This document shows positions 9,084-56,468 of a stretch of DNA of 64,000 nt, one piece after another. The stretch spans positions 7,837,815-7,901,814 of the forward strand of contig CAIIXF020000003.1 in assembly GCA_903813345.2 (NCBI GenBank), in the 5' to 3' direction. Source of the stretch: Owenia fusiformis (Eukaryota > Annelida > Polychaeta > Sabellida > Oweniidae). The notes under the pieces are model-generated. The model was not told the DNA's origin. It worked only from the letters and a program-made list of their open reading frames with translations, and searched no databases. Position numbers and translations under genes: made by a program. Positions within the stretch are counted from its first letter, which is position 1. Each line of letters starts with the position of its first letter.

Positions 9084-9233
9084 CTGTGATGCTGCACACA
9101 CGCCAAATGCCTTTAAGATGACATCTACGATTCTCTGTGAGGTCAGTACATTTCCTCCCACTACAGCCGCATGTTCTGAAGGGTCCAGCATACATCCCTT
9201 GGGTATGATGACATGTACAGGCTTCAGGCAACC
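9084..9233 (-). CDS. OPLAH: OPLAH window exon 25 (last found)
   Basis: This 150-bp, phase-0 exon has acceptor cttgtag and donor GTGAGA. It encodes [40 protein letters not shown] and [10 protein letters not shown]. An intact donor shows that the transcript continues. The expected next block (GCMNN-type) was not found in the 9 kb that remain. Confidence 0.96.
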
Positions 9234-12200: not shown

Positions 12201-15200
12201 ATATCAATATTGGTGAATTTATAAAATCTCACTGTCTAAGGTATACAGCATCTTGATCCATCCATCCAGGTATGGTATTACATACCTGGGGGGGGGGGGT
12301 CACTCCAAATAATTTGGGTAGGTATGTGCAGCACGGCCAATTTTGTCTTTGAGCATAAAACATGGAAATTGGCCAATCTAAAAGGAAAAAAAACATGGAA
12401 AATTGTCGAGGGAAGTACCTTTTTAAGTCAAATTTCAGTCTTTCTTCAAAAGAATTGTACTAAAATCGTCAAATCAGTTGTTAAGGCCTGGAACAAATCA
12501 CTAGAAAAGTTGATTTTTTAGTCAATTATAAGTCTCAGAGGAATTAAACATGGAAAACTTCAATCTTGAGAGGAAATTGACATGGAAAAATGCTCAAAAA
12601 TGGGGTCTTTGGAGCGACACATAGGTATCAAGAAGTATATTGGAGTGAACCCCCCCGGGATTACATATGACTCAGGGGCGTAACAAGCTTTCAGAAAAAT
12701 TTTGTGACAGATTTTCTTGTCACTCTGAAAACCTGTCACTCCAAGTAAAGGTTCAGCATCAACTTCACTGATTTTAATTTCAATTCCTAGATTTAAACTT
12801 AAATTCACCTTTTCAATTTGCTTGCCAATAAGTTCAACAATGAAACATATCATCCATGTACAATGTATCACAACAATATGTAACATATGGGACCATATGG
12901 TGCAATTATCAGATAGATGTGAAACATGATATGTATAAAATACCATCAACAGGGTTCGAATTCGTTCACCTTTTTCAAAATGAACTTCCCTGACATTTCC
13001 AGGCATTTAAAAGGCAAGACTTATTATGAAACATTTTGGGTTAGTCCTTTAGTACCATTTCTCATGACTTTGGCCGTCTTATTCACCAATTTATTCCTGA
13101 ACATTATATTCTCAATTTTACATATTTACATTGCATAAGGCCAAAGGTAAACATACATGTACAGGGGGCATAGCCAACAAGTGTCAAGGGGGTGCAACTT
13201 TTGGGGTTTGCATCACTGCGAGCGAAGGAAACCCAAAAGGGGGATACGGGGGTTCACCCCCGTAAATGTTTTAAAATTGACAATTGTATATGGTGCATTC
13301 TAAGCATTTCAAACTAGAAAATGGCAACTCCACGGAGTAGCAAATCCCAAAGAACATTATATAAATCATCAATCTGTACAGCCACAATGTAATATTTACT
13401 ATCTACTCTTACCTTCAATAAATATTTTAAATCATTGTAGTATCATGTAACCATACTTTCAGGATAACTCTAAGTAATTGCGAATTTCTGCTCTAGTCAG
13501 CCATTTTGAATTTTCAGAGGTGAAAATCAGAAAAACAATGCCATAATTGTGATCTACTCTGAAATACCTTCAATTTGAGTATAATATAGCCATACTTTTA
13601 AGAGATTAGAAAATAATTGCGAAATCCCGCATTAGGCAGCCATTTTGAATTTTTTGAGGCCCAAATCAAAAAAACGCTACAATATTTACAATCTCCTCTA
13701 AACTGCCTTTCATTTGAGTATAATAAAGCTATACTTCAAAGACATCTCAAAATTAACGCAAATTCCTGTTTTCCCGATCCCCAATTTACGGCCCCTGGGA
13801 GTCAGGGTGAAACACCCAGGATATATATGAAATAGATAGATGTTGTTAATATACTACCAAAATTTCAATTAATAATATTCATCATTTTAGTTTGAAATGA
13901 AAAACATAAGATTTTTGTGAAAAATTCCCGCCATTTTCAAACTGGCGGCCATCTTGAAAAAAAATTTTTAGCGTAAAACTATTCACCAATATACATCTTT
14001 TCACCAAATATGGAGAAAATCTGTCCACTTGTATTCGAGTTATCTTCCGGACAGACGGACTGACTGATGGACTGACGGACTGACGGCTTCACTATATCCC
14101 TACAGAACTTTGTTCGTTGGGATAACTACTAGTATAATCAAACTATAATCTGTTAATGTTTTATAATGAATGCAAATAAAACCAAAACTTAAAAATGTTG
14201 ATCTAAAGAAAAATAGCAACTACCTTGAGGGGCAATTTCAACCTAATGAAACATATTTTACCGAATACAATCATTGTGAACATTGTATGAAAAATTGCAA
14301 CTGTCTTCTTATACAGTAACAATAACAAAAACATTGCGATCACCAAAATATTTTCGGTTTTCAGTCAGGGGGGTGCGACAGTGGCATAAACAAGCCAAAA
14401 ATAAAATTTATTTTGAATTTCACAAAATTGTTGCAATTTCCTTCAAAATTGAGCTAGAACCTTCAAATAAAAAGCATTCTAAAGCACCCATCACCCCCTC
14501 CCCCCCTGGCTACGCCTATGATGTATCAGAATGCCTGATCACTGATATAGGCATAAGAGTTGACAATGATGGCAAAATTGTGAAAATGAGAATTTAGACA
14601 AAAAACCCTAAGGAAAAATACCTTGAAAGGTTGTAACCCTGCAATTTGATAGATACTAATCTTTGATTACATCTTATCTTTTGACACTTTAATTGGCTAA
14701 TTATCTTTAATTACAAGTGACTTGTGACATTATAGACTGAGATAATAACACTTAATCTAGAATTGTTTTGATTGAGTTAAGAACTTATCTAAACATTAAC
14801 ATAAATTTGTCTAATATGGCATCCAATAATGCTTCTGCTCATGTCATGTTATGTGACTATTGGCTCTGCAAGGGAGGGGGAGGGGGGGGGTATGGACCAG
14901 GTAGCCAGATTTTGCGAGAAACTTTCTGGCGATAAATATACTGTGTCTGACTGAATTGAAGGTTCCATTTCACCATTCTAATAAGCCCCCTAAAAATTTA
15001 AGAAGTGCTGATCCAACTTTACTAAAAAAAAATTCTAAATCTTTAATAAGAAAGTTAAGTTGGGCATTTGGAACAGGTTTTGAGAATTTTTTGGAGACCA
15101 ACTTTGAGTGACATCTTGTCCCATAATGTAACTATTAAAATATATAGGACTGTCACATCCCACAATGCACTTCAGATATTTCGGGTTAAAAGGCACTCCA

Positions 15201-18200
15201 TGTCCCAGCCCATCACGTACATGACATAAATCGTGGAGAAGTACATCATATCCCATAATGCACCTGAGAAATGACAAATATACTTGGTTAAGAGAGATTC
15301 CATGTCCAAGGTATAAAAACATAGGGATGTAATTTCCCACAATGCACCAAATAAGTTATACAGACCTACCTGGTTTAAAGGGACATCATCTCCCACAATG
15401 CACCTGAGAAGTGACAAATGCACTTGGTTAATGAGATGCCATGTCCAAGGTATAAAGATATATTCAGAGGGATGTAATTTCCCACAATGCACTTAAGAAG
15501 TTATACAGACTTACCTGGTTTAAAGGGACATCATGTCCCACCATGCACCTGAGGCAGTAGATGAGGGCTGAGAGTGTCACTGCACGTGGAGCATTACAGT
15601 TGCCATGTACCTCATACCCAGTACCAGTAAAATCAACCACAGCTGTTCCCTGGAAAAAACAAATTTAATTCTGTTTATTGGTAAATCTGCATATATCAGA
15701 TCATTTTGAGTGATATCATTTTCATTGATGAGTTGATATCATACACTGGCGGATCTGGAAGGGGGGACCTAGAAAAAAATTGGGCCCAAAAAGGCCTTGG
15801 GGCCCACAAAGTAGACCTCTTTGGCCACAATTGGACCTTTTAAGGCCATTTATTTAATATAAGGCCAAATTTTGAAGAAAAAGGGCCTTAAATTTTGGCC
15901 CCTCCTTGTTGGTTCCCAGTTCTGCCCCTGTAATACTGTAAAACACTTTAAATTCGCGGGTGCAATTTTCACGAATTTGTACATATGATTCTTTTCGCGT
16001 ATTCATGTTTTCGCGATTTACCACCACAATACGCGAATAATAAATCAATTCTGTGTTGTAAAATAAATGTTAACAAAGTTAATTGTCAAACTGCATTGAA
16101 ATGTGATAAGGAATAAAACCTGTTTCGGAAATATTTAGTGTAAGATATGATTGTTTTGGATTAATATTCTAATTGGTTGTATCTCAGGGTATTATCTTGT
16201 TAATAAATAAGACAGATTGCCACCTGTTGTTTTTCGATTGAAAATAAAACTCATGATAAGTTAGAAATAATCTTACAAACTTGCTTGCCATGAGTTAATA
16301 CCCATTCATTGGAATTGTGTGTATGGAGGAATCAAGTCCTAGGGGAAAGAATGATTTCAACATTTCACCTCAACTTAAATTATTACTATGACGATTTCTT
16401 AACACATTACTTTATCTACCAAACTTTGTTTTTAACTAACTTCATAAAGAACAATTGTTTTATTGTTTAAAACATAGCATGCAGTATTTCAATAGACAAA
16501 TATATTTCAACATGACGTTTGAATTTTGACATTGTTTTCACGCTTGTTTTATAATTGCATACAACGCTTGAATAAGAGGAACAAAACACATTTAAAAATA
16601 TTGTATATTACTTACAAGTAGTATATTTTATTCTTCATTCACGTTACCCAGGAAAAAAATGTGATGTCCAATTTTGAATTCGCGGGATCCTGAATTCGCG
16701 ATTTAACACTCACGCGAATATACGCGAATTCAAGATGCTCGCGAATTTAACATGTTTTACAGTAACCCTCATAAAGTCACTGGACTGGCATATCTGGAGA
16801 ATACGAGAAAACAGAGCTCAAACTGTAAACTGGGTAATGTTCTCTGCACAGTCCCACTCAGCTCATATTTCTGGTTGTAATGACAAGCTCTGAATTCTTA
16901 TTTAAGATACTTAGACTGATAGTAATGGCAGTCTATGGCAGATTGAAAATGGAACTGAAAAAATGTTCTCATTGAGAAATGTTCAGATAAGGCCAGGGTA
17001 CATGTTGGAATCTTTTTGCAATTTTGAAAAGTAAACCACTGAATATTCTAGTTATTCAAACATTCTGAAGAATCATCAACCCTCAATTGATAGTCTAGTT
17101 ACACTAATGCATCTTTTGTGCAGGAACGAAAGATGTATATGATGTGTGGAATGAGTTATGTTTATCTAAAAAATAGCACATGGACATGAAATCTCATCAA
17201 AGTGCACCCTGACCTTAAAAGAGATGTTTGGGTGTACCACAGTTGGGTATACAGGTTGGCTCAGGTTTTACTGTAGCTGCAAATGTCCTGCAATATTGAA
17301 AGGTGAAGATATATCCTACATTGCATCCAAAAGTGATACTTTAAATGTCATCTATGGGCTAAATGTTCCATAACTTTATGTAATCTTCAAATTCCAACAG
17401 TTCTAAAGTATATCCAAATATAGTCACAAATCCGATGCTGTCACACCAGAGACATTTAGAGAGGTTTACTCCCGATTTATTTCTCTCTTAATATCACAGT
17501 GACCAAGTGCTAACAGTGGATATTGTCCTGGACGTGTTTTTTTCAACCGATTAAGACATGTTTTTTGGAAAATTTGAGAGGTAGGTTGATAAATTTAGTT
17601 ATGAAATTGCTGTCACTTGACTTTATGTAAATGTAAGTAATTTATATTGCTAACCATAATATATATCCTAACTTCAGGTATCTGCAAATGTGTTATTTGC
17701 ATGAATCTTATGCTATAGCCTTGTTTAATCGAAAAATGCGATTCTGGCAGTGTTACACATATTTATGCCTGAAAATCACTAGCCTGCCATGTATTCAATG
17801 AATACAACGATTCATAAGGAAAGTACTCACAATATGTGCGAAAACCACTAATTAAAAGAGCTTAAATAAGTAGCAATTGACCAAATATTTTTATGGATTT
17901 AACTTTTTGTATGTGTCCAAGGATATCCCTTCTCCATCGTTAACTCCACTTTCTACATTTACAGTCATTTATGGCAATTTTAAGATAAAGATAGTTAAAA
18001 CACCATCTTTAGAGAAGTGAATATTATTCCACGTTGTTGAATGGATAGTCTGTTTAAACTTAATTTAATAACACCAAATGCAAATTTAGTACATATTTCT
18101 GGCATTTTTGGTACATAATTGCGATTACTATGAAGTATGATGGAATGATCACCAAAATAGATACGTGGGTATGAAGAACATCTTAGGTAGAAGTCAAGTA

Positions 18201-45200: not shown

Positions 45201-48200
45201 CAAGGGTTGGTGCAAGTCCCGGGGTGCAAGTCTGCACTCCCAGACTCCAGATAGGAGTGAAACGCATCATGGGATTGAATGCATTCGTTGAAGTTTACAG
45301 AAACAGTTGAATACGTATAATTCAGAATTTAAGTGAATCCACATGATCATTTGCGTTCAACAATGCATTTATAGAGAGGTTTCGCAAGTTTTTAGCTCAA
45401 CGTGTTGTGTTCACCAGATTTATTACCCTTTACATTCGTTCGACTTCACTTCTTAATTAAAAGAGAGCTTCATCTTCTGTAGTTTATTTCTAGGCTCTGC
45501 GCGTAGGGTACAGCACTAAAACGAGTTGAGGTTAATCCATTGTGCGAAACCTCTCTAATACCAGAGGGGTTATTCATCAAGCTAAATGACCCCTCGAGGC
45601 GATATATATGTTATGTTACAGTTACATGTTACAGTTACATGTTAAATTGTTAAGACTTGAAAGTTAATAATTAAGTTTTTTGCGTTATCTTTCAGATACC
45701 TATAATTAGTACACGTTGCTCTCTATGTTGGCGGTGATGACACGTTCTGCTTTCTTTTCAAGAAGCTGCAGTCTAATCTTTAAATGTATTCAGTTTATTG
45801 GTTTTGCATGTTGCATACATATTGATAAGTGTTTACATTCATAATTCAAAAAAAGCTTTGTTTTGATTTATTATTTAAAAAAATATTTGGCTAGCAAATC
45901 GCACCCCCACCCCATTCTGACTGAAAACCGAATTTTTAAGGGGCAATCGCATCCCCCCCTGACTGAAAGTTGGCTACGCCCCTGTGTTTCCCTTTGTCCC
46001 CTTTCATTTATCTTCTGTAAACTTGTTTGAACAATTTAATACTAGTACTACAAAGATAACTTCATTCGAAACGCATGCAATTCACTCCAATTATATTTAT
46101 TCATGTATTTCCATTAGTGAGGGTAAGGGATTTGATTATAAAATTGACGGTGGTTGCGAAGTTGTGATTTGGATGGGAGGGGTATACTATACTAAGGTGT
46201 TATAAGACCCAATAATTAATATAAACAACTAAACGCCTTCCTGATTGCATCCTAGCTCATCCTGTCCGCCAGTCTATCTCGATCGCATTTGATCAATGAA
46301 TTTATAATTCCTGATTAAACTGACTCTTGATTTTAAAATAGGAATTCTAAATCTGTTACTAGTATTTAAAAGTTGGTGTCTATTATGATACTGGAAATTG
46401 GAATACTATATTTTGTATTACTATTCTATCTCGATCTATAGTATATAAATATGGATTTCTAGGTCTACAGTCTGTCATTCCCACATGGGCTTCATTGAAA
46501 CATACGACATTGCAAAGTTTATCCATTTCAAACAAGCCAGGAAAACAGATAACTTGTATTGCATCAGGCCCCGCAAATGTCCCATTTTTCTCTCGGGAAA
46601 TACATAAATATCAGAGACATATTTCATAGCCAGAGGCCAAAAATGTCAAAATCGATATAAAATCTAAAAAGGATAAAATGTCCCCCCGAATACGGTACCT
46701 AGGTAATTAAATCTAATATTTCATAGTTCCCGCATAATAAGCATAAAACTTTAATTTACCGCTGTATCGAAATTCACGTGATCCCTTATTGAAATTTTAC
46801 TAAATAATTGAGTTTGATCATTTAATGCTGTTGGATAGAATATAATCAAAATTTTAGCCCATGTCTGAGCGAATGGTATAAATTCACATAGTTCTGATTA
46901 CAATGAGAATTCTAAAAAATTTCCTGGCATTTCCTTTACGTTTATAATCACGTATCATGCTTATTAACTAGATCAATACAGACTCGATTCCCTTTGCCCA
47001 CCTTCAACATTGTTATGTAATGACGGGAAACAGTCACTGTAATCTTCTAATCAGCCGTTTGTTTTTATTGTAATTGGGAAACTAGTCAATTTTGATTTAG
47101 TATTGTTTCAATGAACAAAAAGCACATTAGTTCAGCATTTCAAGGAAGGGGGGTGTAAACAATTACTGACTGTCAAGTACATGTATCTCTCACGGGGCCC
47201 TATTTCCCCAACCCTCAATTCATGCATACGCCTATTATATAATGGATAGGGAAATATATAACATTCCAACAGATACTGTCTGGACCTCCTACCCTTTTTA
47301 CCCTTTGCATTCGTTTGACTTCACTTCTTAAAAGAGAGCTTCGTCTAGTTTAACTAGACTCTGCACGCAGGGTAACCCTTTTACACCGGGTCTCTTCTTG
47401 AACCCCTCCCATATTCTAATGTTTCTCGAAACTGCTCATGTAAACTTTGTAAGGCAATGCAGGGTTTGCTACGGGTGTGACTTGCAATGTATAACTTACT
47501 TGTACTGTATAAGAAATAAAAACAAATAAACAAACATAAAAACTTGTGCTCATAATTAATACGGTGATAAGCAACAAAACGTCAAAATAAAATTTTGAAG
47601 TTTCAAAAACAGCCATGCACTACCCTGCATTTTAGCTGAAATTAAGTTTATTCCAAATAACTTATGTAACGAAATGGAAATGATTCGAAAAATAAAAATT
47701 CGATGAACATTTCACAATGAAGCAAACAAAACCAGATAGTAAAGAATTATTCTAATTTAAACCGACGTGAAACCTCAACCCTAAAGACACTGGTGACATT
47801 TGAAAGACTAATTTCTTAATCTAATTTCAACAAAACAAATCAAAACGTAAACAGGTTGACGGTCGTTGTAGTTTATAGACCATGCTAACAAAGTTTAAAC
47901 ATTTTATTTACGGCTTATTTAAAACATGCAAACGGGTGTATTTACTGAAGGAATATGTTAGGAAATATATTTAAAGTGTATTCATGCCTGCAATCATCGC
48001 TGGTAACACCTGAAAACAACTTCTTAAAATACAAACATAATTCACTGCACTGCTGTATACGTCTACCTGCTCTCAAATCTAATAATGAAACGAAAAAAAT
48101 AATGCATGCCAAACTTTTATCTATTGTAATATTATCTATGGTTATTTCAAAGTTTTACTCTTGCATCAAGCAACTGTGCCATTTCCCCATCGGTCCTGTC

Positions 48201-51200
48201 TTTAAGGGCTAACACTTTACTTGAGGCAAGATGCATAAACTTGAACTCCCTGGGCTATAACTTGAAGAACGGCGTATTGTTCTTCAAACTGGACTTGAAA
48301 TCTCAATTGTCACTGCTTGTGTGTCAGAACTCATTGGCACCTGCAAAACAGAATAATAAAATAAGAATAACATCATGATGATATCAGATATCATATTTCA
48401 TTTGGAGCCTTAAATATTAAACAAGGCATAAACATGAAAAATGTCACCACCCGCCATTTGTTACAGACGCTGAACGCCGACCCCAGACGCTAAACACCGT
48501 ACATAAAAAAGTTGGAGACTTTAACAATATATGACCACTTTTGTGGGTGACATAAAAAGGGGAAGTCCCGTCTAAATAAAACTCCTGATTTCAAGTTTTT
48601 TGTAAACATACACCATTGCATGTTGATGGTTGGCATGACCTGCAGGTCACGATGACAAATGAATGTTAGGTTGTCAATAGAATATAGCGTTTGACCCTCT
48701 CTGATCATAAAAATGAGTTGATAGAAATTCAAGTAACATGTATCAAGTTCATTTTATCACGGACTACAACTATTGATTCCAAATCTGGTTCACTGAACGG
48801 CTCAATAATTAGTAGTAAAGCGTATTTTATAGAGTCCGTAGTCTGGTGGCAGTTTATAAATCCCGCATTCGAACACTTATAATACTCCTAGATCTTAATA
48901 TAACAATTTACGGTTTTTGCAATACGTTGTTTTTAATCACCTGTAGACGCACCTGGTGATCGGAAAATATGAACGGATCGGAGGGGGTGGGGTTGGTGAA
49001 GATTTGTTGAATTTTCTATCAAAAATGGGCTGACCTCCCTCCTCCGTTCATTTTGTCCGATCGCTGGGCGTGATAGATAATGTATTGAACGTTTTTATGT
49101 GTTTCTTATCGAACAAAATGTGTATTTTGGACTAATAATGTAATTCATAATAAATACAAGTATTTCAAGAATTGCCATACTGCACGTAAAACGGGTAGCC
49201 GTAGCTTCTTCACTGATGTACGATCGGATATACTACATGTACTTAAAAAAGTTGCGACTAATAAAACAGATCATCTTTAATGTAAAAATAACAGGTACAC
49301 TTCATATAATCAATTTTAGATACTGTATTTAGTAATATTATCAATCCCAAACACAACGCATTAATTAAATGCATGTTTAAGTGTCAATTAGCGTATTAGA
49401 ATAAAAATATTAAAACTATTATGAACAGATAATTCATTGATATGTATTTATTCAACTCTAATGGGCTTTTCTCTTTTAACTGCTACATGACTCTCGATTT
49501 ACAGATATACAGATTTCGAGCCATCAAAGTCAGATAAGGCGGAGCCCTTATCCTCAATTAAAAAATAATATTGGTAAGGAAGTCGGACATGTTTGATACC
49601 GTTTCTTATCTCTTTTCTGCTTTTAAAATACCGACTTGAATCTGATCACAATTTGTGTACGATCATTGCATCAGATCTGAAAATATCAATATTGTACTCA
49701 CTGGTTTTGTGATCGAAAGGTAGTATATGAGTTATAGATTATATAATTTGTGTGTTTTTTATGAAAAATAACATGCTCCGAGCAGGTGACAAATATTTCG
49801 ACCACAGCCATACTGTTTTATTTAACTCGTATTTGAAAACAGATTGCAGAGAGACTGAATTGTTCATTTTCTTTTAAAAAATATACGACTGAAAACTTAC
49901 TTCGTCAAATTTTGGCCATTGCTATCCCCCCAGCCCCCGGATACATTCCAATATAAAAATAAATTAACACCATCAAATCTTTTCATTCCAAAACACAAAA
50001 CGCCTACATGTAGGCGCGTGTCGGTGTGATTTCAGGCATGATCAGTACTGTACATTTCTTAGAAGAAATGAGATGTCATGGTTTATCATGATGCATTCTC
50101 CGATCCACGTTGGAGTTGGCCAATGCATCGAGGAGTGCACCGACCGACGTAGCCAGCTTTCAGTCAGAGATTTTTCCCAAATAAAATTAAAAAAAATTGA
50201 AGAAGAATCTGGACAGAATTCCCACTTCTTGCAGTCGATCAATCCAATAAACAATATCAAGTTTAAAATCAGACAATATGCGCCGGCCGTAAAAGTTTCT
50301 GAATTTAATAACAAAGCACATGTGACTGTGTAATTATATCCATTGATGTTGTAAACTAGACGACATGTAGGTTCAGGTAGAAACATATACAACTGCTATA
50401 TATCTCTGGTTAAAGCAAAACAATTAATTTAGCTTTTAATTATCGATCCTCTGTATATTACACGATCGACCAGGAATAATCGCCACTGTACAGTAGCATT
50501 CGATTTAGGCGGCTTTTATTAATTCATGAATTTTGTTTCAAGAATATGATTTAAATATAAAATACATTGAACAATTGCCGGTTGAATTAGACTCACAGTT
50601 GCCCTGTCTTAATTTTGCATCGATCGATGCATTCCTCGATCCACCGATGCACATTGGACGTTGCATCGAGAAATGCGTCGATCGGCGCATAAAACGTGCC
50701 GATCGGTGCATCGTTAAAATGCGCCGAGATGCATTTCGGCGCGCCGATGTTGCATCGATCGTCGCATCGATCGTTGCACCGGTCGGTGCGTCGATCGGTG
50801 CATCTATCGTCGCACCGAGGTGTGATGGCCGCTCTGGTCTGTACTGTACTTCAAACAAGACATCAACATGAAAAAAATGTCACCCCATGGCTGCAATTGC
50901 AACGGTGTAATAACAATATGTTACATACACCAAATGCTCACACTCTCACCAGGCCCGTAGCCAGGATTTGCCAAGGGGGGTTCACTTTTTGTAAAATTCC
51001 AGGGGGGTTCAAAACCACTTAAAAAGTGCTCAGAATGGTGAATTTGAATTATTATTTTTGGCGAGCGAACCCACAGAACCCCCCCTGGCTAGGAACCTGC
51101 TCACCAATAAGAATATGTTGAAACCAAATGGTGGAGACATTATAAATTGAAAAAAATTCAATAAAGGGTGACATGAGGTGTCTACTTGTGAACATTGCAT

Positions 51201-54200
51201 ATAAAGCTTACCTCCCATATCAAACCCTATAACTGGTAACTGTGTCTCCTTCTGGTATGTTGTCATAGCATAGCCTACCACCCCTCCTGCAGGACCTGAT
51301 AGTATTGCCTTCGATCCCGTGAATCTGAAATGTGTGAAGAAGCATGATGATTCTGTATGATGTAAAAATAATAATTATCAATTTACCTGTTACAATCTGC
51401 CAAGAACTTAAATGTTTTAATGCATAACAGATTTTAAGACCATCCTTTTACCTATTTACTAAAGGAAGGGCATTTTTCACCTAATTACTGGCTTAAAACT
51501 ATTATAGCTCACATTTAGCTAATTATTGGTGCAAAATCAGAACACTTTACATATTTGGTGGTGCAAGTCCATTATAGAATGTACATTTTACTGATGTAAG
51601 ACTACAACACATATTTACCTACATAGTGTTGAAAGACCATTAGAATGGAGACAATTACAACACACATTTTCCTTTTAGTGGTGAAAGATCAATAGCACAT
51701 TTACCTATTTAGTGGTGAAAGACCATTAGAATATATGTTTACCTATTCATTGGTGTAAGACCATTAGAATGGAGACAATTACAACACACATTTTCCTATT
51801 TAGTGGTGAAAGATCAATAGAATATTTACCTATTTAGTGGTGAAAGACCATTACAATACACATTTACGATGTAGCGATGTAGACCATATAATTTAAGTGA
51901 ACAAAAGATAACCCCTCACTTGCTCGCGATTTCACGGGGCCTGGATAGTCACCGTGAGTATAAGACCATCACAAAAAACATTTACCTATTAAGTGGTGAA
52001 AGGCCTTTAGAATGTTTATTTACCTATTTACTGGTGTAAGACCATATTAGAATATTCATTTGCCTATTTACTAGTGTAAGACCATATTAGAATGTTCATT
52101 TACCTATTTACTAGTGTAAGACCATATTAGAATGTTCATTTACCTATTTACTAGTATTAGACCATATTAGAATGTTCATTTACCTATTTACTAGTGTAAG
52201 ACAATATTAGAAGTGTAAGACCATATTAGAAAGTTTATTCAGCTATTTATTAGTGTAAGACCATATTAGAATGTTAATTTACCTATTTACTGATGTAAGA
52301 CCATATTAGAATTTTATTTACCCATTTATTAGTATAAGCCATATTAGAATGTTCATTTACCTATTTACGAGTGTAAGACCATATTAGAATGTTCATTTAT
52401 CTATTTACTAGTGTAAGGCCATATTAGAATGTTCATTTACCTAATTACTAGTGTAAGACCATATTAGAATGTTCATTTACCTATTTACTAGTGTAAGACC
52501 ATATTAGAATGTTCATTTACCTATTTACTAGTATTAGACCATATTAGAATGTTCATTTACCTATTTACTAGTGTAAGACATTATTAGAAGTGTAAGACCA
52601 TATTAGAAAGTTTATTCAGCTATTTATTAGTGTAAGACCATATTAGAATGTTAATTTACCTATTTACTGATGTAAGACCATATTAGAATTTTATTTACCC
52701 ATTTATTAGTATAAGCCATATTAGAATGTTCATTTACCTATTTACCAGTGTAAGACCATATTAGAATGTTCATTTATCTATTTACTAGTGTAAGACCATA
52801 TTAGAATGTTCATTTATCTATTTACTAGTGTAAGACCATATTAGAATGTTCATTTACCTATTTACTAGTGTAAGACCATATTGGAATGTTCATTTACCTA
52901 TTTACAAGTATTAGATCATATTAGAATGTTCATTTACCTATTTACTAGTGTAAGACCATATTAGAATGTTCATTTACCTATTTACTAGTATTAGACCATA
53001 TTAGAATGTTCATTTACCTATTTACTAGTGTAAGACCATATTAGAATGTTAATTTACCTATTTACTGATGTAAGACCATATTAGAATTTTATTTACCCAT
53101 TTATTAGTATAAGCCATATTAGAATGTTCATTTACCTATTTACGAGTGTAAGACCATATTAGAATGTTCATTTATCTATTTACTAGTGTAAGACCATATT
53201 AGAATGTTCATTTACCTATTTACGAGTGTAAGACCATATTAGAATGTTCATTTACCTATTTACTAGTGTAAGACCATATTAGAATGTTCATTTACCTATT
53301 TACTAGTATTAGACCATATTAGAATGTTCATTCACCTATTTACTAGTGTAAGACAATATTAGAAGTGTAAGACCATATTAGAAAGTTTATTCAGCTATTT
53401 ATTAGTGTAAGACCATATTATAATGTTCATTTGCCTATTTACTGATGTAAGACCATATTAGAATTTTATTTACCCATTTATTAGTATAAGCCATATTAGA
53501 ATGTTCATTTACCTATTTACGAGTGTAAGACCATATTAGAATGTTCATTTATCTATTTACTAGTGTAAGACCATATTAGAATGTTCATTTACCTATTTAC
53601 TAGTGTAAGACCATATTAGAATGTTCATTTACCTATTTACTGGTGTAAGACCTCCATCGGACTGCATGAACATCACTCGCATTTTCTATAACAAGAGTTT
53701 TTAGATTTCGCATTGCAGATAAAACGAGATAAATGAAAAAATGCCATAATATGGACTTTTTTAAAACCTCCTTTACTTTCCCGGTCATAAAGCAACAAGG
53801 CACCATCAAAAATAGTCAGTATTATTCAAAATGGTCACAATATAAGGTTTATCTTCGAAATACAATGCTTCCACAATGCATATATAAATACCTCTATATC
53901 TTTGAAACCACTTGAAAAACCTTTCACATAGCGCTTTATACAGGGTGTCAGGTATGCATCAGCACATGCTGAAATATACATTTGTACAATTTTTTATACA
54001 GGGTGTCAGGTATAAGCTCAGAAAATATGTAAACATTGCATACAAAGGAGATGTATCTCAATACAGGGTGTCCATTGTATTAGCCCAACTGGTGGCTGTG
54101 TTGTGTTGAGCCACATTTAAAATTGGTTTGTCCCTGCAAAAAGTAGAAAATATTATGATATATTTGCGTCTGGTTGAGAAATGACACAGAGTGTAAAAAC

Positions 54201-55548
54201 ATCTCACACTGAATGCAAAATGGCCACTTACTACACAAAATGCCCAGTTAATCAAATGAAAAAAAATGTCTAGCTATCTTGATGACAAGATTCATTGTGC
54301 TTTAAGTGAAGCTCTTTCAATTCAGCAATTTAGCAGTTTGCATAAAATCTTGTAATACTTGTATGGATACCTGTAAATCCTCTGGGTACGATTCTAACCA
54401 TTGGCATAACTTCAGATGACAGAGACACTTGAGTAAAGCCCATTTTCTCAGCCAAATCTCTGATTGCTCTTTCGTGTGCATCATACCTAGATAGATAGAA
54501 TTGAATAGATTGAAATAAATTCAACATTGAGAAGATGCCAAAAGTGAGCAACTAACTTGCTAACTTGGTTGCTCAGTAAGTCATACTAATATTTCAATTG
54601 GAAAAGATTAAGCCACTACTTTTAAAATTATATTGTATAGTATAATCGTTCAGTATATATTAGACACAAAGGGAAATCTTGAGTGAATAGATTATTGTCT
54701 GTTTGAATATACTTACGTATAGGAATGCATAAGGACTACAGCAAGGCTTCGAATCCCTTTATCAAGTATGCCTTGGAGGTCTGCTTTCAACTTAAGGGTA
54801 TCCAAAGGGTGCCATATCTCCAACTACCAGTCAGCACAAAACACCAAATAATTTATGCATGCGTTTTATACTACTTCATATGCAGGCCTCCTAGACTTCC
54901 ATCTTCACAAACACCAGTTCCGACCACGCAAACACCAGTTCCGACCACGCAAACACCAGTTCTGTCCACGCAAACACCAGTTCCGACCTTCCTTGCATTA
55001 GAACCATGATTCTCACATTACGAACGTGAGGTCAGAACTGATGTTCACGTTGATGATAGTATAGGAGCCCTGATAAATCTACTTCACACTAATGTCAATT
55101 TCCAAGGTTTCATTCATTTATAGTTTATATACTCATATAATTATTTCAACATCAATGATATCAAATAAACAAATAAAATTAATGAAAAAATGTTGGAATA
55201 GTAATAGAATGATTTTTAAAGATATCTATGGACTTTAAAACATTTAAATACAAAGTGTTCCACTTAGGAGGTGTTCTACTACTTATAGAGGTTCATTTAA
55301 CAATGAGTCTGAAAAATGGTTCACTAAAAGAGATGTTCCACTGTACTTGATATATTTTAGAGGATCAGTTTCTCTTTTATCCTTTTCACATGCATAATTA
55401 AAAATGATCAAGTTTAACAAACCTTCTCTTCTGTAGCCCCAGTAACTGTTACAAAATCTTTGTTTATCTGACATTTCTCCTGACTCAGTACAATTCTCTC
55501 ATCCACCTCAATGACTTCTTCATATAACACATCGGGAGTAACAATCTC
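9084..55548 (-). CDS. OPLAH: 5-oxoprolinase (ATP-hydrolysing), 25 internal exons, partial gene
   Basis: The encoded enzyme converts 5-oxo-L-proline plus ATP and water to L-glutamate in the cytosolic gamma-glutamyl (glutathione) cycle. Twenty-five minus-strand exons with GT-AG boundaries and matching phases give 998 uninterrupted codons. They follow the animal OPLAH order: [72 protein letters not shown] (hydantoinase-A, ASKHA-type ATP-binding region), [34 protein letters not shown], then hydantoinase-B blocks [66 protein letters not shown] and [11 protein letters not shown]. Against a family length of about 1290 residues (known from memory), roughly 120 N-terminal and 170 C-terminal residues are missing. 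No internal stop or frameshift was found, so the gene looks functional. No other host gene is recognisable nearby. Confidence 0.96.
9410..10607. mobile_element. 1.2-kb element with ~240-bp inverted repeats
   Basis: AGTCAAAACAGAAATG at 9410 pairs with its complement ending at 10607. The arms 9410-9530 and 10484-10607 match, as do inner arms 9535-9648 and 10236-10352 (about 95%). A 130-bp insert interrupts the right arm between 10352 and 10484. No transposase ORF is present. It lies in the intron between OPLAH exons 24 and 25. Confidence 0.8.
10608..12284. other. Intron sequence without a gene
   Basis: A diverged direct duplication sits at about 10984-11070 and 11131-11200 (shared TTTTACCTAG and TTCCTATTGGCCAAT). 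Two C-rich tracts lie near 11780 and 11980. Nothing coding is supported. Confidence 0.5.
12285..12659. mobile_element. 375-bp MITE with 8-bp target duplication
   Basis: The left end is CCTGGGGGG...TCACTCCAA and the right end TTGGAGTGAACCCCCCCGGG. The flanks carry a perfect 8-bp duplication ATTACATA (12277-12284 and 12660-12667), as hAT-type elements make. The interior has no coding capacity. Confidence 0.8.
12950..14632. mobile_element. CAGGGTTCG-type element, copy with nested insert
   Basis: 12950-13314 and 14140-14320 align with 23204-23600 and 23606-23785. The copy therefore carries an inserted block at about 13315-14139. AACCCTG at 14626-14632 may be the right end, but no clear target duplication was seen. 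Confidence 0.55.
13315..14129. mobile_element. Nested GGGATAAC-ending repeat
   Basis: It contains repeated CCATTTTGAATTTT blocks, a GGACTGACGGACTGACGG stretch and an end CCCTACAGAACTTTGTTCG...GGGATAAC. The same ending occurs in the element at 20660-21316. It interrupts the 12950 element. Confidence 0.55.
15117..15514 (-). repeat. Tandem copies of the OPLAH exon 24 donor junction
   Basis: TCCCAYAATGCAC-like blocks recur at about 15118, 15157, 15249, 15336, 15391 and 15479 before the exon's own copy at 15536. The 15352-15408 copy matches the exon-intron junction over about 52 bases. It encodes [13 protein letters not shown] (exon: [13 protein letters not shown]) and keeps a donor GTAGGT. Confidence 0.9.
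15515..15649 (-). CDS. OPLAH: OPLAH window exon 24
   Basis: This 135-bp, phase-0 exon has acceptor ttccag and donor GTAAGT. It encodes [40 protein letters not shown] and VPLNQ, with the DFSGTGxEVxGNxNAPxAVTxSA motif. The 3' end of the exon and its donor are repeated in the following intron. Confidence 0.97.
15936..16762. mobile_element. 827-bp TIR element, TA target site
   Basis: CTGTAAAACA...TTAAATTCGCG at the left is inverted at the right (CGCGAATTTAACATGTTTTACAG), and TA lies on both sides. This fits a Tc1/mariner-type non-autonomous element. Both ends are rich in TTCGCG/CGCGAA motifs, and there is no transposase ORF. Confidence 0.8.
16763..17440. other. Intron sequence, nothing recognised
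   Basis: This is mixed-composition intron DNA between two TIR elements. No ORF with a recognisable domain and no clear repeat were seen. Confidence 0.4.
17441..18375. mobile_element. Diverged inverted-repeat element
   Basis: TCACACCAGAGACA at 17441 is complemented by TGTCTCTGGTCACA at about 18362-18375. Inner arms near 17500-17555 and 18265-18325 also pair at about 80% (CAGGACGTGTTTT). No coding sequence is present, and target duplications are not clear. Confidence 0.5.
18863..19197 (+). repeat. ~100-bp segment present twice
   Basis: About 18863-18965 and 19101-19197 share GTATGAGGCTTATGTG, CCTAGCCAG and TTTTGCCAATGGGGG, with later divergence. The second copy runs up to the MITE at 19198. 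Confidence 0.7.
19198..19394 (+). mobile_element. CAGGCCCGTAGCC MITE, copy 1
   Basis: The 13-bp TIRs are CAGGCCCATAGCC and GGCTACGGGCCTG. The flanking 5-bp duplication CCCCA is perfect (19193-19197 and 19395-19399). The interior holds CATGCAGTTTTTCACCAT and C-rich tracts shared by all copies. Confidence 0.9.
19627..20654 (+). pseudogene. LINE reverse-transcriptase C-terminal fragment
   Basis: Reads [34 protein letters not shown] and [18 protein letters not shown]. It resumes after an inserted element with [20 protein letters not shown], then shifts frame near 20540 to [15 protein letters not shown] and stops at 20652-20654. This is the usual ending of non-LTR retrotransposon ORF2 proteins. 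It is 5'-truncated, split by the hAT-type MITE and frameshifted, so inactive. Confidence 0.85.
19909..20368. mobile_element. 460-bp hAT-type MITE inside the LINE fragment
   Basis: TIRs TAGAGGTGTG and CACACCTCTA are flanked by an 8-bp duplication (CTAAGAAG/CTGAGAAG, 7 of 8). The interior has many TTAATCGATTAA palindromes near both ends. The LINE reading frame continues across the insertion point. Confidence 0.88.
20660..21316. mobile_element. Repeat with AAAATGGC blocks ending GGGATAAC
   Basis: A unit of about 150 bp is doubled (about 20668-20960), with CAAATATGAACAAAATCGCTC. It ends in a GACGGA-type stretch and CCCTCTGAACTTTGTTCGATGGGATAAC-like sequence, the same ending as 13315-14129. Family unknown. 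Confidence 0.55.
21474..21620 (-). CDS. OPLAH: OPLAH window exon 23
   Basis: This 147-bp, phase-0 exon has acceptor ttgcag and donor GTGAGG. It encodes [40 protein letters not shown] and LNINIDATE. The DHMDDGSxIxL motif is typical of hydantoinase B. Confidence 0.96.
21621..22574. other. Intron between exons 22 and 23
   Basis: No gene is present. A G-run and ATCATGCAGTATTTCACCATTCTGAGCA at about 22377-22458 look like a decayed piece of the CAGGCCCGTAGCC MITE family. Confidence 0.5.
22575..22649 (-). CDS. OPLAH: OPLAH window exon 22
   Basis: This 75-bp, phase-0 exon has acceptor tttcag and donor GTACAT. It encodes [20 protein letters not shown], then MTHIQ, matching the family segment between the VAANQ and NAE blocks. 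Confidence 0.95.
23071..23180 (-). CDS. OPLAH: OPLAH window exon 21
   Basis: This 110-bp exon has acceptor attttag and donor GTAAGA. It encodes [20 protein letters not shown], then [16 protein letters not shown], including the [19 protein letters not shown] signature. Confidence 0.97.
23798..24722. mobile_element. 925-bp mariner-like element with ~155-bp TIRs
   Basis: Ends are CAGTGTGTATCAAAAAAACG and CGTTTTTTGATACGCCCTG, between TA dinucleotides. The arms 23798-23955 and 24570-24722 pair at about 80%. A third, direct copy of the arm lies at about 24060-24170. No transposase was found. Confidence 0.8.
24979..25467. mobile_element. 489-bp TIR element, TA target site
   Basis: CTGTAGATTGGGTTAATTTG at the left is complemented at the right, with about 44 bp of inverted repeat and TA on each side. 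TTTGGCGA-like motifs occur throughout. It is non-coding. Confidence 0.88.
26099..26273 (-). CDS. OPLAH: OPLAH window exon 20
   Basis: This 175-bp exon has acceptor gcttttag and donor GTAAGC. It encodes [40 protein letters not shown] and [18 protein letters not shown]. The [11 protein letters not shown] block is one of the best conserved in the family. The start was fixed by VFYKGTK fitting the family and by phase. Confidence 0.96.
26563..26805 (+). mobile_element. tRNA-derived SINE
   Basis: The tRNA-like head has box A TGGCTCAGTGGCAGAG and box B GGTTCGATTCCC with about tRNA spacing (26571-26642). A roughly 160-bp unrelated body follows, with CTCCTCCAAGGAGGGG. It lies in the intron between OPLAH exons 19 and 20, in the opposite orientation. 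The 3' boundary is approximate. Confidence 0.75.
27179..27280 (-). CDS. OPLAH: OPLAH window exon 19
   Basis: This 102-bp, phase-0 exon follows tttttcag and ends at GTAAGT. It encodes [20 protein letters not shown], then [14 protein letters not shown]. [20 protein letters not shown] is a core hydantoinase-B motif. Confidence 0.97.
27300..27390. mobile_element. ATGTCACCACC element, short form
   Basis: Ends and core (ATGTCACCACCCGCCATTTG, TTACAGACAACGACTGCC, ATAACATGTCACC) match the outer parts of 32697-34433, without any array. Confidence 0.6.
27668..27778 (-). CDS. OPLAH: OPLAH window exon 18
   Basis: This 111-bp, phase-0 exon has acceptor tatcag and donor GTAAGA. It encodes [20 protein letters not shown], then [17 protein letters not shown], the conserved [10 protein letters not shown] and APHIPVHLG region of hydantoinase B. 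Confidence 0.97.
28231..29711. mobile_element. Element with ATGTCCCCACC ends and internal 160-bp array
   Basis: AATGTCCCCACC at the left and GGTGGGGACAT at the right are inverted. Between them, a unit of about 160 bp is repeated about six times (TAGACAAGACTTTACAGAC, ATCCAAAATGGC, AATTGATCTACCAAA). A GGACGGACGGACG stretch lies near the right end. Confidence 0.75.
29854..29991 (-). CDS. OPLAH: OPLAH window exon 17 (start of hydantoinase-B domain)
   Basis: This 138-bp exon is phase 0 at both ends, with acceptor tttcag and donor GTACAT. It encodes [40 protein letters not shown] and [24 protein letters not shown] is the canonical opening of the hydantoinase-B half. Confidence 0.97.
30170..30415. 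mobile_element. 246-bp TA element carrying a minisatellite
   Basis: CAGTAAAATCT and AGGTTTTACTG ends lie between TA dinucleotides. Inside, GTTGTGAGTACTTTTGGTC is repeated about five times (about 30206-30312). It is in the OPLAH intron between exons 16 and 17. Confidence 0.7.
30502..30565 (-). CDS. OPLAH: OPLAH window exon 16 (64 bp)
   Basis: The acceptor is tttcag and the donor is GTAAGA. The exon encodes [20 protein letters not shown] plus K, which matches the TI-LVEPGCEA-IT-GDI segment that closes the hydantoinase-A/linker region. Confidence 0.95.
31022..31134 (-). CDS. OPLAH: OPLAH window exon 15
   Basis: This 113-bp exon starts in phase 0 after ttttcag and ends at GTATGT. It encodes [20 protein letters not shown], then [17 protein letters not shown]. 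The QCYFEGGYQ and GPAIIID blocks are conserved in the family. Confidence 0.96.
31577..31630 (-). repeat. Copy of the OPLAH exon 14 donor junction
   Basis: About 54 bases match the exon 14 end plus donor (31711-31764) at about 88%, including GCTGAAAC followed by a GTAAAT-type donor. It lies about 134 bp downstream of the true donor, inside the intron. Confidence 0.85.
31729..31867 (-). CDS. OPLAH: OPLAH window exon 14
   Basis: This 139-bp exon has acceptor atttcag and donor GTAAAT. It encodes [40 protein letters not shown] and PPKAET. The final 35 or so exon bases and the donor are duplicated about 134 bp downstream (31577-31630). Confidence 0.95.
31986..32162 (+). mobile_element. CAGGCCCGTAGCC MITE, copy 2
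   Basis: Ends and interior match copy 1. Flanks CCCTT and CCCTC are a near-perfect 5-bp duplication. It lies upstream of OPLAH exon 14 in the same intron as the 32.7-34.4 kb array. Confidence 0.88.
32422..32596 (+). mobile_element. CAGGCCCGTAGCC MITE, copy 3 (diverged)
   Basis: Ends are CAGACCCATAGCC and a decayed AAAGGCCTG. The 5-bp target duplication TACTA is perfect on both sides (32417-32421 and 32597-32601). Confidence 0.85.
32697..34433. mobile_element. ATGTCACCACC element with expanded internal array
   Basis: The left end has ATGTCACCACC (32719) and the right GGTGGTGACAT (34433). The middle holds about eight units of 140-190 bp (TCTGAGAACATGTAGATG, TTTAGTCAATTTGAAGCA, GACCTTTTTTGACCTT). 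Short forms of the family occur at 27305 and 48421. Confidence 0.8.
34454..34594 (-). CDS. OPLAH: OPLAH window exon 13
   Basis: This 141-bp exon has acceptor tttcag and donor GTATCT. It encodes [40 protein letters not shown] and QQAFLE. The [16 protein letters not shown] block is diagnostic for 5-oxoprolinase. Confidence 0.96.
34891..37009. repeat. 13-bp GATC minisatellite, ~160 units
   Basis: The unit is CAAAGTGATCTAT with frequent variants (AAGGTGATC, CCGCC, AACAG). About 2.1 kb gives roughly 160 copies, with longer blocks repeated as higher-order units. It fills most of the intron between OPLAH exons 12 and 13. The 13-base period and lack of a long ORF rule out coding. Confidence 0.95.
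37035..37155 (-). CDS. OPLAH: OPLAH window exon 12
   Basis: This 121-bp exon has acceptor cctttag and donor GTAAGT. It encodes [20 protein letters not shown], then [19 protein letters not shown]. The segment is poorly conserved, but phase and position fit. A 13-bp GATC array begins 25 bases beyond its donor. Confidence 0.9.
37380..37612. repeat. Cluster of ACAGYRCTGT palindromes
   Basis: ACAGCGCTGT, ACAGTACTGT and near variants occur more than a dozen times in about 230 bp, in irregular spacing. Each is self-complementary or nearly so. The cluster lies in the intron between OPLAH exons 11 and 12. Confidence 0.85.
37738..37826 (-). CDS. OPLAH: OPLAH window exon 11
   Basis: This 89-bp exon has acceptor tttccag and donor GTAAGC. 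It encodes [20 protein letters not shown], then EPCASHYEP, the conserved SGLLSA-G-ALADVVHEAQEP region. Confidence 0.95.
38082..38323 (-). CDS. OPLAH: OPLAH window exon 10 (largest)
   Basis: This 242-bp exon begins in phase 0 after a T-rich tract and gttcag, and ends at GTAAGT. It encodes [60 protein letters not shown] and [20 protein letters not shown]. It covers the [10 protein letters not shown] and [10 protein letters not shown] signatures near the end of the hydantoinase-A half. Confidence 0.97.
38632..38774 (-). CDS. OPLAH: OPLAH window exon 9
   Basis: This 143-bp exon has acceptor ccttcag and donor GTTAGG. It encodes [20 protein letters not shown] and continues through [15 protein letters not shown] to [15 protein letters not shown] is a strongly conserved family motif. 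Confidence 0.96.
39001..39295. mobile_element. ATGTCACCACC element, one-unit form
   Basis: It shares the left end and the AAGTCAGATTTGAA/GGTCAATTTGAAGCAAG unit of 32697-34433, but has essentially one unit and a decayed right end. It lies between OPLAH exons 8 and 9. Confidence 0.7.
39321..39438 (-). CDS. OPLAH: OPLAH window exon 8
   Basis: This 118-bp exon has acceptor ttttcag and donor GTCTGT. It encodes [20 protein letters not shown], then [19 protein letters not shown]. The GGGS and [11 protein letters not shown] blocks are hallmarks of hydantoinase-A proteins. Confidence 0.96.
39649..39737 (-). CDS. OPLAH: OPLAH window exon 7
   Basis: This 89-bp exon has acceptor cttttag and donor GTAATA. 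It encodes [20 protein letters not shown], then [10 protein letters not shown], completing the phosphate-binding DMGGTSTDVS motif. A TIR element (39758-39962) begins only 20 bases upstream of its splice acceptor. Confidence 0.96.
39758..39962 (+). mobile_element. CAGGCCCGTAGCC MITE, copy 4, next to a splice acceptor
   Basis: TIRs CAGGCCCGTAGCC and GGCTATGGGCCTG have perfect CATTA duplications (39753-39757 and 39963-39967). The insertion is 20 bases upstream of OPLAH exon 7, so the element may now supply the branch-point region. Confidence 0.92.
40098..40310. repeat. Left GGTGCATCGATC-rich terminal block
   Basis: About nine GGTGCATC/GATGCACC motifs lie in about 210 bp, and the block is GC- and CpG-rich against AT-rich surroundings. 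Many motifs overlap CGATCG palindromes. Confidence 0.85.
40320..40910 (+). repeat. ~300-bp direct duplication near the left end
   Basis: 40320-40600 and 40630-40910 align with indels: GATCATT, AAATCACG...GACGGG, TTCGATATTT, TATTCCAAATTCA, AAACTGTACGTA, TTTCGTTCATAATTG. A weaker third piece follows at about 40970-41045. Confidence 0.8.
44464..44546 (+). mobile_element. 83-bp TACCCT...GGGTA mini-element, copy 1
   Basis: It begins TACCCTGCGTGCAGAGTC and ends GAATGCAAAGGGTA. Related copies are at 45424-45510 and 47299-47374, both in the opposite orientation. All three lie within the 10.8-kb candidate element. Confidence 0.75.
45424..45510 (-). mobile_element. TACCCT...GGGTA mini-element, copy 2
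   Basis: Inverse orientation to 44464. It shares TTCGTTCGACTTCACTTCTT, AAAAGAGAGCTTC and GCTCTGCGCGTAGGGTA. Confidence 0.75.
47299..47374 (-). mobile_element. TACCCT...GGGTA mini-element, copy 3
   Basis: Inverse orientation to 44464. It shares TACCCTTTGCATTCG, TTCACTTCTTAAAAGAGAGC and GACTCTGCACGCAGGGTA. Confidence 0.75.
48421..48553. mobile_element. ATGTCACCACC element, short form 2
   Basis: This 130-bp copy has ATGTCACCACCCGCCATTTG at the left and TGTGGGTGACAT at the right, with no internal array. It lies inside the 10.8-kb candidate element. Confidence 0.75.
50100..50827. repeat. Right GGTGCATCGATC-rich terminal block
   Basis: The dense part is 50610-50820, with TGCATCGATCG and CGATCGGTGCAT motifs. 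A small outlier with the same motifs lies at 50119-50145. The composition is like the left block and unlike the interior. Confidence 0.85.
50950..51099 (-). mobile_element. CAGGCCCGTAGCC MITE, copy 5 (inverted)
   Basis: This 150-bp copy is in the opposite orientation. Ends are CAGGCCCGTAGCC and GGCTAGGAACCTG, with perfect CTCAC duplications (50945-50949 and 51100-51104). It lies 112 bp downstream of the OPLAH exon 6 donor. Confidence 0.9.
51212..51324 (-). CDS. OPLAH: OPLAH window exon 6
   Basis: This 113-bp exon has acceptor tttcag and donor GTAAGC. It encodes [20 protein letters not shown], then [17 protein letters not shown]. The glycine-rich blocks belong to the hydantoinase-A nucleotide-binding fold. 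The DMGGTSTD motif is split between this exon and the next, across the 11.5-kb intron. Confidence 0.96.
51440..53640 (-). repeat. 40-bp array grown from the OPLAH exon 5 donor junction
   Basis: On the minus strand each unit reads GGTCTTACACTAGTAAATAG followed by GTAAATGAACATTCTAATAT. The first half is the last 20 bases of exon 5 with one change, and the second begins with its splice donor. About 50 units are present. Those near the exon are regular, while those beyond about 52000 are diverged. A longer block with TTCAGCTATTTATTAGTG recurs as a higher-order unit. Confidence 0.95.
53633..53685 (-). CDS. OPLAH: OPLAH window exon 5 (53 bp)
   Basis: The acceptor ttatag precedes AAAATGCGA and the donor is AG|GTAAATG. 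The exon encodes [17 protein letters not shown] plus two bases of an Arg codon finished in the next exon. The last 20 bases of the exon, its donor and the following intron bases form the terminal unit of the 40-bp tandem array that fills the downstream intron. Confidence 0.95.
53892..53968 (-). CDS. OPLAH: OPLAH window exon 4
   Basis: This 77-bp exon is too short to show as a long ORF. The acceptor is tttcag before CATGTGC and the donor is GTATTT. It encodes [20 protein letters not shown], then FKDIE, matching the conserved DAYLTP block. A 21-base stretch of the exon is repeated exactly in the upstream intron at 53993-54013. Confidence 0.93.
53993..54013 (-). repeat. Exact 21-bp copy of OPLAH exon 4 sequence
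   Basis: 53993-54013 equals 53935-53955 inside exon 4. A similar continuation includes an acceptor-like TTTTCTGAG. A third, shorter copy of ATACAGGGTGTC lies at 54061-54072. All are in the intron upstream of exon 4. Confidence 0.8.
54371..54486 (-). CDS. OPLAH: OPLAH window exon 3
   Basis: This 116-bp exon follows the acceptor tatctag and ends before the donor GTATCC. It completes the previous Thr codon and encodes [19 protein letters not shown], then [19 protein letters not shown]. The phase passes correctly to the next exon, where the shared codon becomes Ala. Confidence 0.95.
54717..54823 (-). CDS. OPLAH: OPLAH window exon 2
   Basis: This 107-bp exon starts in phase 0 after ctggtag and ends two bases into a codon before GTAAGT. 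It encodes [16 protein letters not shown], then [20 protein letters not shown]. The second block is strongly conserved in 5-oxoprolinases. Confidence 0.95.
54906..54988. repeat. 21-bp minisatellite, ~4 units
   Basis: CAAACACCAGTTCCGACCACG is repeated about four times with one variant (TCTGTCC). It lies upstream of OPLAH exon 2 in its intron. Confidence 0.9.
55423..55548 (-). CDS. OPLAH: OPLAH window exon 1
   Basis: This 126-bp exon is phase 0 at both ends. The acceptor is cttgcag before GAGATTGTT and the donor is GTTTGT. It encodes [20 protein letters not shown] and continues to TGATEEK, which lies just after the N-terminal hydantoinase segment. The first 19 bases and the acceptor recur four times upstream in a tandem repeat that ends near 56330. 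Confidence 0.95.
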
Positions 55549-56330
55549 CTGCAAGTACATTAACATAAATGCATATTATAAACTTGCAATTAGGTCACCA
55601 TGTATGATATGAATACAAGGCATCCTTCTTAAATGTACATGTTGTAAAGTTGTAATTTAATGGAATAATTCACCATATAGGATATAGAGCCAACAAAAAG
55701 TTCTAAAAAGCATCGGGAGTAACAATCTCCTGCAAGTACATTAACATAAATGCATATTATAAACTTGTAGTTAGATCACCATGTATGATATGAACGCAAG
55801 GCATCCTTTTAAAATGTACATGTTGTAAAGTTGCAATTTAATGGAATAATTCACCATATAGGATATAGAGCCAATAAAAAGTTCTAAAAAGCATCTGGGG
55901 TAACAATCTCCTGCAAGTATATTAACATATGATATGAACGCAAGGCATCCTTTTAAAATGTACATGTTGTAAAGTTTCAATTAAATGGAATAATTCACCA
56001 TATAGGATATAGAGCCAATAAAAAGTTCTAAAAAGCATCTGGGGTAACAATCTCCTGCAAGTATATTAACATATGATATGAACGCAAGGCATCCTTTTAA
56101 AATGTACATGTTGTAAAGTTTCAATTTAATAGAATAATTCACCATATAGGGTATAAAGCCAACAAAAAGTTCTAAAAAGCATCTGGAGTAACAATCGCCT
56201 GCAAGTACCTTAACATAAATGCATATTATAAACTTGCAAGCAAAACGTCATGTATGACATGTATGATACGAATGCAAGGCATCCTTCTAAAAGGAGATGT
56301 AAAGTTTTAATTAAATTGATTAGTTCACCA
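55530..56330 (-). repeat. Tandem repeat carrying the OPLAH exon 1 acceptor
   Basis: Units start at about 55531, 55712, 55893, 56037 and 56181 (spacing 181, 181, 144, 144). Each holds, on the minus strand, cttgcag then G(A/C)GATTGTTAC(T/C)CC(C/A)GATG, which is the exon 1 acceptor with its first 19 bases. The first unit is the exon itself. The other four are upstream in the intron. Confidence 0.93.
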
Positions 56331-56468
56331 TAGGGCATATAACTGCAAATAGTGTAACTTTAAATAATATGGATTAAATCAACATGTCCGAAAATATAAA
56401 TGTAACGCCTAATTATATATGCGGAAACTGACAATAGACTAAAATTATTATCTTTATTTAGACACCAA

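Follow-up and report, generated by a model that had tools for sequence, protein, structure and literature searches.

Tandem repeats that span exon boundaries have been published under the name of mirages for several amphioxus genes. The cases named in excerpts of the two papers concerned are Adh3, the globin genes BflGb6 and BflGb9, troponin C and PGBD5 (PMC3087553, PMC3902484), the last two being contributed by PMC3902484, and the mirages reportedly leave splicing undisturbed, according to an excerpt of PMC3087553. By its title, a paper of Turri et al. 1995 (cited in PMC3618361) described a minisatellite that supplies multiple splice donors. A related process is intron gain by tandem duplication of AGGT (Rogers 1989 and Hellsten 2011, as referred to in an excerpt of PMC4974935); the same excerpt mentions several 24-bp copies in fission-yeast intron gain, and Drosophila cases are mentioned in an excerpt of PMC2891723. 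The locus considered here lies in the window, a stretch of 64,000 nucleotides of the Owenia fusiformis genome (G000:C3:7837815-7901814), in which an earlier note had seen copies of exon-intron junctions and had taken them for a pattern not described before. That claim of novelty failed, because boundary-spanning tandem repeats were already in print as mirages. The arrays at the exon ends of the OPLAH gene are real and of this known kind, and the present analysis extended them to further genes.

The minus strand of the window was occupied by OPLAH (5-oxoprolinase), for which 25 exons were obtained, with GT-AG introns throughout. The exons were found by tblastn with four bacterial 5-oxoprolinases chosen among 66 long frames, and the model was set by hand; its exon numbers agree with those of the earlier note. 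The joined frame of 998 codons was open over every join. Exon 5 showed no tblastn match to bacterial OPLAH, and its position was deduced from the frame and the splice sites. Exon 1 (55423-55548, minus strand), located by tblastn with bacterial OPLAH and by the open joined frame, is not the true first exon of the gene, and its acceptor AG sits immediately above 55548. N-terminal exons were sought in the 30 kb upstream, to the right of the window, and were not found there. The final exon inside the window was exon 25 (9084-9233, minus strand, tblastn and joined frame), and four further exons were located past the left window edge, at coordinates of about -25069 to -29703. Genome-wide searches covered an assembly of 498 Mb in 525 contigs. 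Two other features of the window were observed. At 2462-3709 there was a 69-bp unit repeated 18 times with 97% identity, whose plus-strand frame appears open and possibly coding, and which by eye would give a Ser/Thr-rich repeat of 23 residues. At about 56440-58100, upstream of exon 1, an integrase-like frame was seen, by eye a retroelement fragment.

At each end of every OPLAH exon, the terminal 40 nt were aligned with the neighbouring intron over a length of 1500 nt at most. Strong local copies were found at 5 of 50 exon ends: the donors of exon 24 (score 68) and exon 14 (58), the acceptor side of exon 4 (42), the acceptor of exon 1 (38) and the donor of exon 5 (35). These were exactly the five ends for which the earlier note had listed copies in the adjoining introns. 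The sixth-ranked end scored 21, and the top shuffle score was 25 among the 16 rows listed; chance similarity as the source of the five matches was thereby ruled out. It had also been stated that every copy carries exon sequence together with a splice site, which was true of exons 1, 5, 14 and 24 and incorrect for exon 4. The unit spanned the exon-intron boundary in the arrays at the exon 1 acceptor and at the donors of exons 5, 24 and 28, the last lying beyond the window, while exon 14 had a single copy only. Because exons 1, 14, 24 and 28 match bacterial OPLAH up to their copied ends, the exon sequence was regarded as the source of the copies.

At exon 1, four intronic copies of the acceptor were located at 55711-56238 (minus strand), each with up to 40 nt of intron and 19 nt of exon; they were spaced 181, 144 and 144 bp apart, and AG was retained in all of them. 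For exon 4 (53892-53968, minus strand, placed by the open joined frame), an exact copy of 21 nt, corresponding to exon positions +14 to +34 and devoid of a splice site, was found in the upstream intron (53993-54013, minus strand). Exon 5, 53 nt in length (53633-53685, minus strand, also placed by the open joined frame), ends in GGTCTTACACCAGTAAATAG followed by GTAAATG. Its donor array (51432-53652, minus strand) has a 40-bp unit made of 20 nt from the end of exon 5 and 20 nt from the start of intron 5. It covers about 95% of the intron, which is 2308 bp long, and is broken once, over ∼115 bp. With a minimum of 16 matching bases in the 28-base core, 54 matches were found in the intron; 3 were truncated, and the other 51 included 37 with the donor GT intact (the tally is 41 if the real exon and the truncated units are included). 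Twenty distinct variants were present among 40 full-length units. The authentic donor 9-mer occurred 28 times in intron 5 and not once in the other introns between exons 1 and 25. The units do not reach exon 6, which begins at 51324, the last of them starting at 51471.

Exon 14 (31729-31867, minus strand, open joined frame) was accompanied by a single 55-bp copy of its donor region (31577-31631, minus strand; 35 nt of exon and 20 nt of intron), with 50/55 identity across the junction; it lies 132 bp downstream, isolated from the original. At exon 24 (15515-15649, minus strand, open joined frame), a tandem array with a 145-bp unit crosses the donor (15137-15553, minus strand). It contained one good copy with the donor (15320-15408, 82/89), a short one (15243-15268, 23/26) and an old one (15137-15216, 66/96). 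Introns 12 and 13 are filled to a large extent by a 13/26-bp array (34889-37008) and a 136-bp array (32803-34288) near exon ends, in which no copy of the neighbouring exon ends was detected. In intron 6, a stretch of ∼10.7 kb at about 40100-50840, flanked by related GC-rich sequences of the gcaccgatcggtgcat type, resembles by eye a large inserted element.

The largest case in the gene was found outside the window, at the donor of exon 28 (L083:739-3325, i.e. G000:C3:7808556-7811142). By TRF it comprised 62 copies of a 42-bp unit that holds the last 13-15 nt of exon 28 and its donor, and it occupied most of the 2909-bp intron 28. Its score was 32, slightly below the threshold, because very little exon is copied. 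The exact donor 9-mer was present 53 times in intron 28 and absent from the other introns between exons 1 and 29. The donor GT was kept in 51/53 units, and 26 of the 53 units were distinct.

A control sample was drawn from the same genome by searching nine protein families, from which 27 stretches were taken and 26 scored, L110 having no match. The 147 protein-family matches yielded 139 exons with 277 exon ends after leaving out 3 metH tandem copies, 4 matches outside the stretches and 1 that ran over the edge of a stretch; the splice-site positions came from a small weight matrix and are wrong in some cases. Seven of the 277 ends exceeded the OPLAH threshold, and 6 were judged by inspection to be junction-spanning; at the remaining end (metH, L088) the donor prediction was off, and the array sets in at about the real donor. 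The arrays comprised a donor array of pyc (37 bp, 27 copies), an acceptor array of alaS (76-77 bp, ∼13 units) and an acceptor array of metH (144 bp, 3.8 copies). A gene for an RNA-polymerase large subunit on contig C4, which we take to be similar to RPB1, had a 108-bp donor unit in 10 copies and also a 38-bp acceptor unit, and another such gene on contig C1 had a donor array of 3 copies. Donors were thus involved at exons 5, 14, 24 and 28 of OPLAH, in pyc and in both polymerase genes, and acceptors at exon 1, in alaS, in metH and in the C4 polymerase gene. The recurrence in independent introns, pointed out in the earlier note, was confirmed and goes beyond both the window (exon 28) and the gene (pyc, alaS, metH, polymerases). 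A peculiarity of OPLAH alone was rejected, since other genes carry the same arrays. As a separate observation, a diverged copy (50/66) of the pyc exon end was seen ∼0.7 kb downstream (L112, G000:C8:1785945-1786007), perhaps an alternative exon.

The divergence of the units from the true junction tended to rise with distance. For exon 5 the Spearman coefficient was 0.55 (p 0.00015), and the same trend was seen for alaS (0.57, p 0.04), the C4 polymerase gene (0.60, p 0.07) and pyc (0.36, p 0.08). Exon 28 was without polarity (0.08), and exon 1, with 4 units only, gave 0.32 (p 0.68). In 17 comparisons made with other arrays, using a slightly looser unit match, the median was 0.13 (range -0.86 to 0.55). 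The numbers are small, but the trend is somewhat in favour of growth close to a unit preserved at the exon. As for the copied splice sites, the donor GT was intact in 29/40 full units of exon 5 and 14/24 of pyc, and five other arrays kept all sites; among 34 hand-picked exon 5 units, position +1 was the most variable of 40. The copied sites are neither clearly retained nor clearly purged. Selection against decoy splice sites was discarded as a general rule, as the donors of exon 5 and pyc vary and the five other arrays are intact.

The arrays are probably best regarded as minisatellites of the mirage type, produced by local tandem duplication straddling exon ends, tolerated and later expanded. 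Tandem copies are common in introns, where random points fall on them in 15-16% of cases in OPLAH and in about 8% in other genes, and frequent intronic tandem duplication would occasionally catch a unit straddling an exon end. The splice-site copy beside the exon would stay intact and in use, and the duplicated exon end with its splice site would become intron; we infer that the authentic site is the one used in RNA. Such a duplication may be neutral enough to persist, because the exon-adjacent splice site remains intact and usable. This agrees with the earlier suggestion that tandem copies are tolerated while the extra splice sites remain intronic, with which the anatomy is consistent. Subsequent slippage or unequal exchange could enlarge the arrays until they make up most of introns 5 and 28, and selection on the protein and on the splice site would preserve the exon-bound unit, which might serve as a permanent fresh seed for the array. 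Template switching may be needed for exons 14 and 4, because their copies are isolated patches and not contiguous units.

A different reading, which we consider possible but rather unlikely, is that exon ends are preferred starts or survivors of arrays. Either splice sites would be fragile in connection with transcription or replication, or the unit at the exon would be immune to decay or deletion, with arrays arising or expanding more readily at exon ends as a result. Point coverage gave no sign of such a preference. Copies were found at 5/50 OPLAH exon ends versus the 15-16% of random intronic points, and at 7/277 control ends versus about 8%. Coverage climbed with distance into the intron, from 10% at the junction to 22% at 300 nt in OPLAH and from 2.5% to 11% in the control genes, and the peak of copies at the junction that anchoring would lead one to look for was seen neither in OPLAH nor in the control sample. 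The values were 4/50 versus 12.5% (OPLAH) and 7/277 versus 6.9% (sample) with 25-nt ends, and 3/50 versus 16.3% and 8/277 versus 8.6% with 60-nt ends. When junction-crossing alignments were required, 5/58 versus 14-15% was obtained for OPLAH and, depending on the threshold, 9 or 8/278 versus 8.7 or 7.6% for the sample, in which one extra match at the edge of L089 was taken without inspection. A circular-shift test gave a mean of 7.4 (SD 3.9), the real positions being read as 4 instead of 5 because of its 10-bp grid. The point-coverage null is biased against anchoring, because the growth of an array adds intronic points and never junctions. It was dropped as a refutation for that bias, and a collapsed-array null was added.

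In the collapsed-array null, each TRF array from both strands was reduced to one unit and placed randomly outside exons. For the whole of OPLAH, 4/36 arrays spanned junctions versus 0.87 expected (P 0.009), with the reservation that OPLAH had been picked for having the feature, the exon 28 array being unseen by the selector. For the window part of the gene the result was 3/23 versus 0.94 (P 0.06), and for the unselected sample 7/75 versus 3.76 (P 0.07), where two of the seven spanning arrays (L094, L106), with units of 20-21 bp and a length below 45 bp, were counted without inspection. In the C1 polymerase gene (L106), the TRF footprint of the 587-bp array starts inside the intron, and this array was for that reason not counted as spanning. 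Sample arrays of at least 500 bp gave 4/9 versus 1.46 (P 0.035, without correction for the six length cut-offs), and cut-offs from 60 to 300 bp gave P 0.14-0.26. A one-strand TRF run, which missed the exon 24 and pyc arrays and was replaced by the use of both strands, had given 2/21 versus 0.99 for OPLAH (P 0.26) and 6/73 versus 4.49 for the sample (P 0.29). With full-length arrays placed instead, 3 were observed versus 0.98 expected (P 0.07), or versus 0.56 for arrays of at least 100 bp (P 0.014). With OPLAH and the sample taken together, the 11 junction-spanning arrays were longer than the 102 others (Mann-Whitney P 0.001). The greater length of the spanning arrays and the excess in OPLAH suggest that junctions may matter beyond being a chance target, and a modest excess of arrays at junctions is possible. 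The anchoring at junctions proposed in the earlier note did not find consistent support: the collapsed-array excess in whole OPLAH speaks for it, point coverage is lower at junctions, and the sample (P 0.07) gave no more than a hint. It is likewise conceivable, though we hold it doubtful, that exon-anchored minisatellites form a class of their own, in which an undecaying seed makes arrays more frequent or persistent and larger, and which would be one of the main ways in which introns have grown in this lineage.

A functional role of the copies, by increased U1 binding, by stepwise (ratchet) splicing or by alternative in-frame exon ends, is very improbable. The confinement of the authentic donor 9-mers to introns 5 and 28 would fit such a role, and so would the exon 28 unit, whose length of 42 bp is divisible by three: use of its first copy would add 14 codons in frame. 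With the second copy (+84) the extension would be 28 codons, the donor of this copy being apparently altered to judge from the translation, and a stop follows at +95. The donor GT, however, was not specially conserved in the units of exon 5 or pyc, and skipping of the exon 5, 14 or 24 donor would lead to a stop at +1, +6 or +48, respectively.

Least probable of all is an assembly or haplotype artefact with repeats collapsed or over-expanded: long arrays are hard to size, their copy numbers are possibly wrong, and one amphioxus mirage was apparently misassembled in a draft (an excerpt of PMC3087553), but the units bear distinct substitutions (as counted above for exons 5 and 28), the 5.1-kb stretch from exon 1 to exon 6 was matched in full once when 40 of 746 candidates were scored, and the arrays lie in several genes on different contigs. 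A dispersed element as the source of the units was unsupported among the candidates scored for exons 1-6 and exon 24. No dispersed copies of the exon 1-6 arrays were present among those 40 of 746 candidates, common words being skipped, and for exon 24 the matches elsewhere in the genome were a decayed fragment of the exon and a stretch of 57 bp. A short dispersed element with dozens of genome matches was observed at 55233-55346 of the window, and all listed off-locus matches of the exon 1-6 stretch fall in it. The decayed copy of exon 24 (77%; L101, G000:C3:8526850-8527047) lies ∼0.67 Mb from OPLAH and includes some intron with the beginning of the downstream repeat; the alignment contained no full array.

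To return to the reading as mirage-type minisatellites, the most striking outcome is that two introns, 5 and 28, consist largely of repeats of the donor at their own start. Identical 9-nt copies, 28 in the former and 53 in the latter, are set in competition with the authentic donors there, which amounts to a natural test of site choice, and the arrays are useful for the study of splice-site choice and of intron growth. If the junction excess were true genome-wide, selection on exon ends would shape where introns grow.

The Owenia arrays and the amphioxus mirages, as far as excerpts of the latter reports go, have in common that minisatellite-like repeats lie over exon-intron boundaries, at 5' and 3' ends of exons and in several genes, and that many units keep AG or GT. 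Unlike the amphioxus cases in those excerpts, OPLAH has arrays at four junctions (exons 1, 5, 24 and 28) and in addition single copies at exons 14 and 4. The numbers of units also differ, about 54 (exon 5) and 62 (exon 28) versus 6 and 3 in two BflGb6 haplotypes. The transcript with the minisatellite-borne donors is reportedly that of IFI6. That minisatellite is likewise a tandem unit with a splice donor; to judge from the title of the report, its copies serve as donors of the transcript, whereas those of OPLAH are putative donors. As in intron gain by AGGT duplication, in the portions of the literature consulted, duplicated exon sequence with splice motifs turns into intron in OPLAH. In contrast to that process, for which copies at both ends of the intron would be expected, no unit of intron 5 arrives at exon 6, and the OPLAH arrays enlarge introns that already exist, with no new intron shown.
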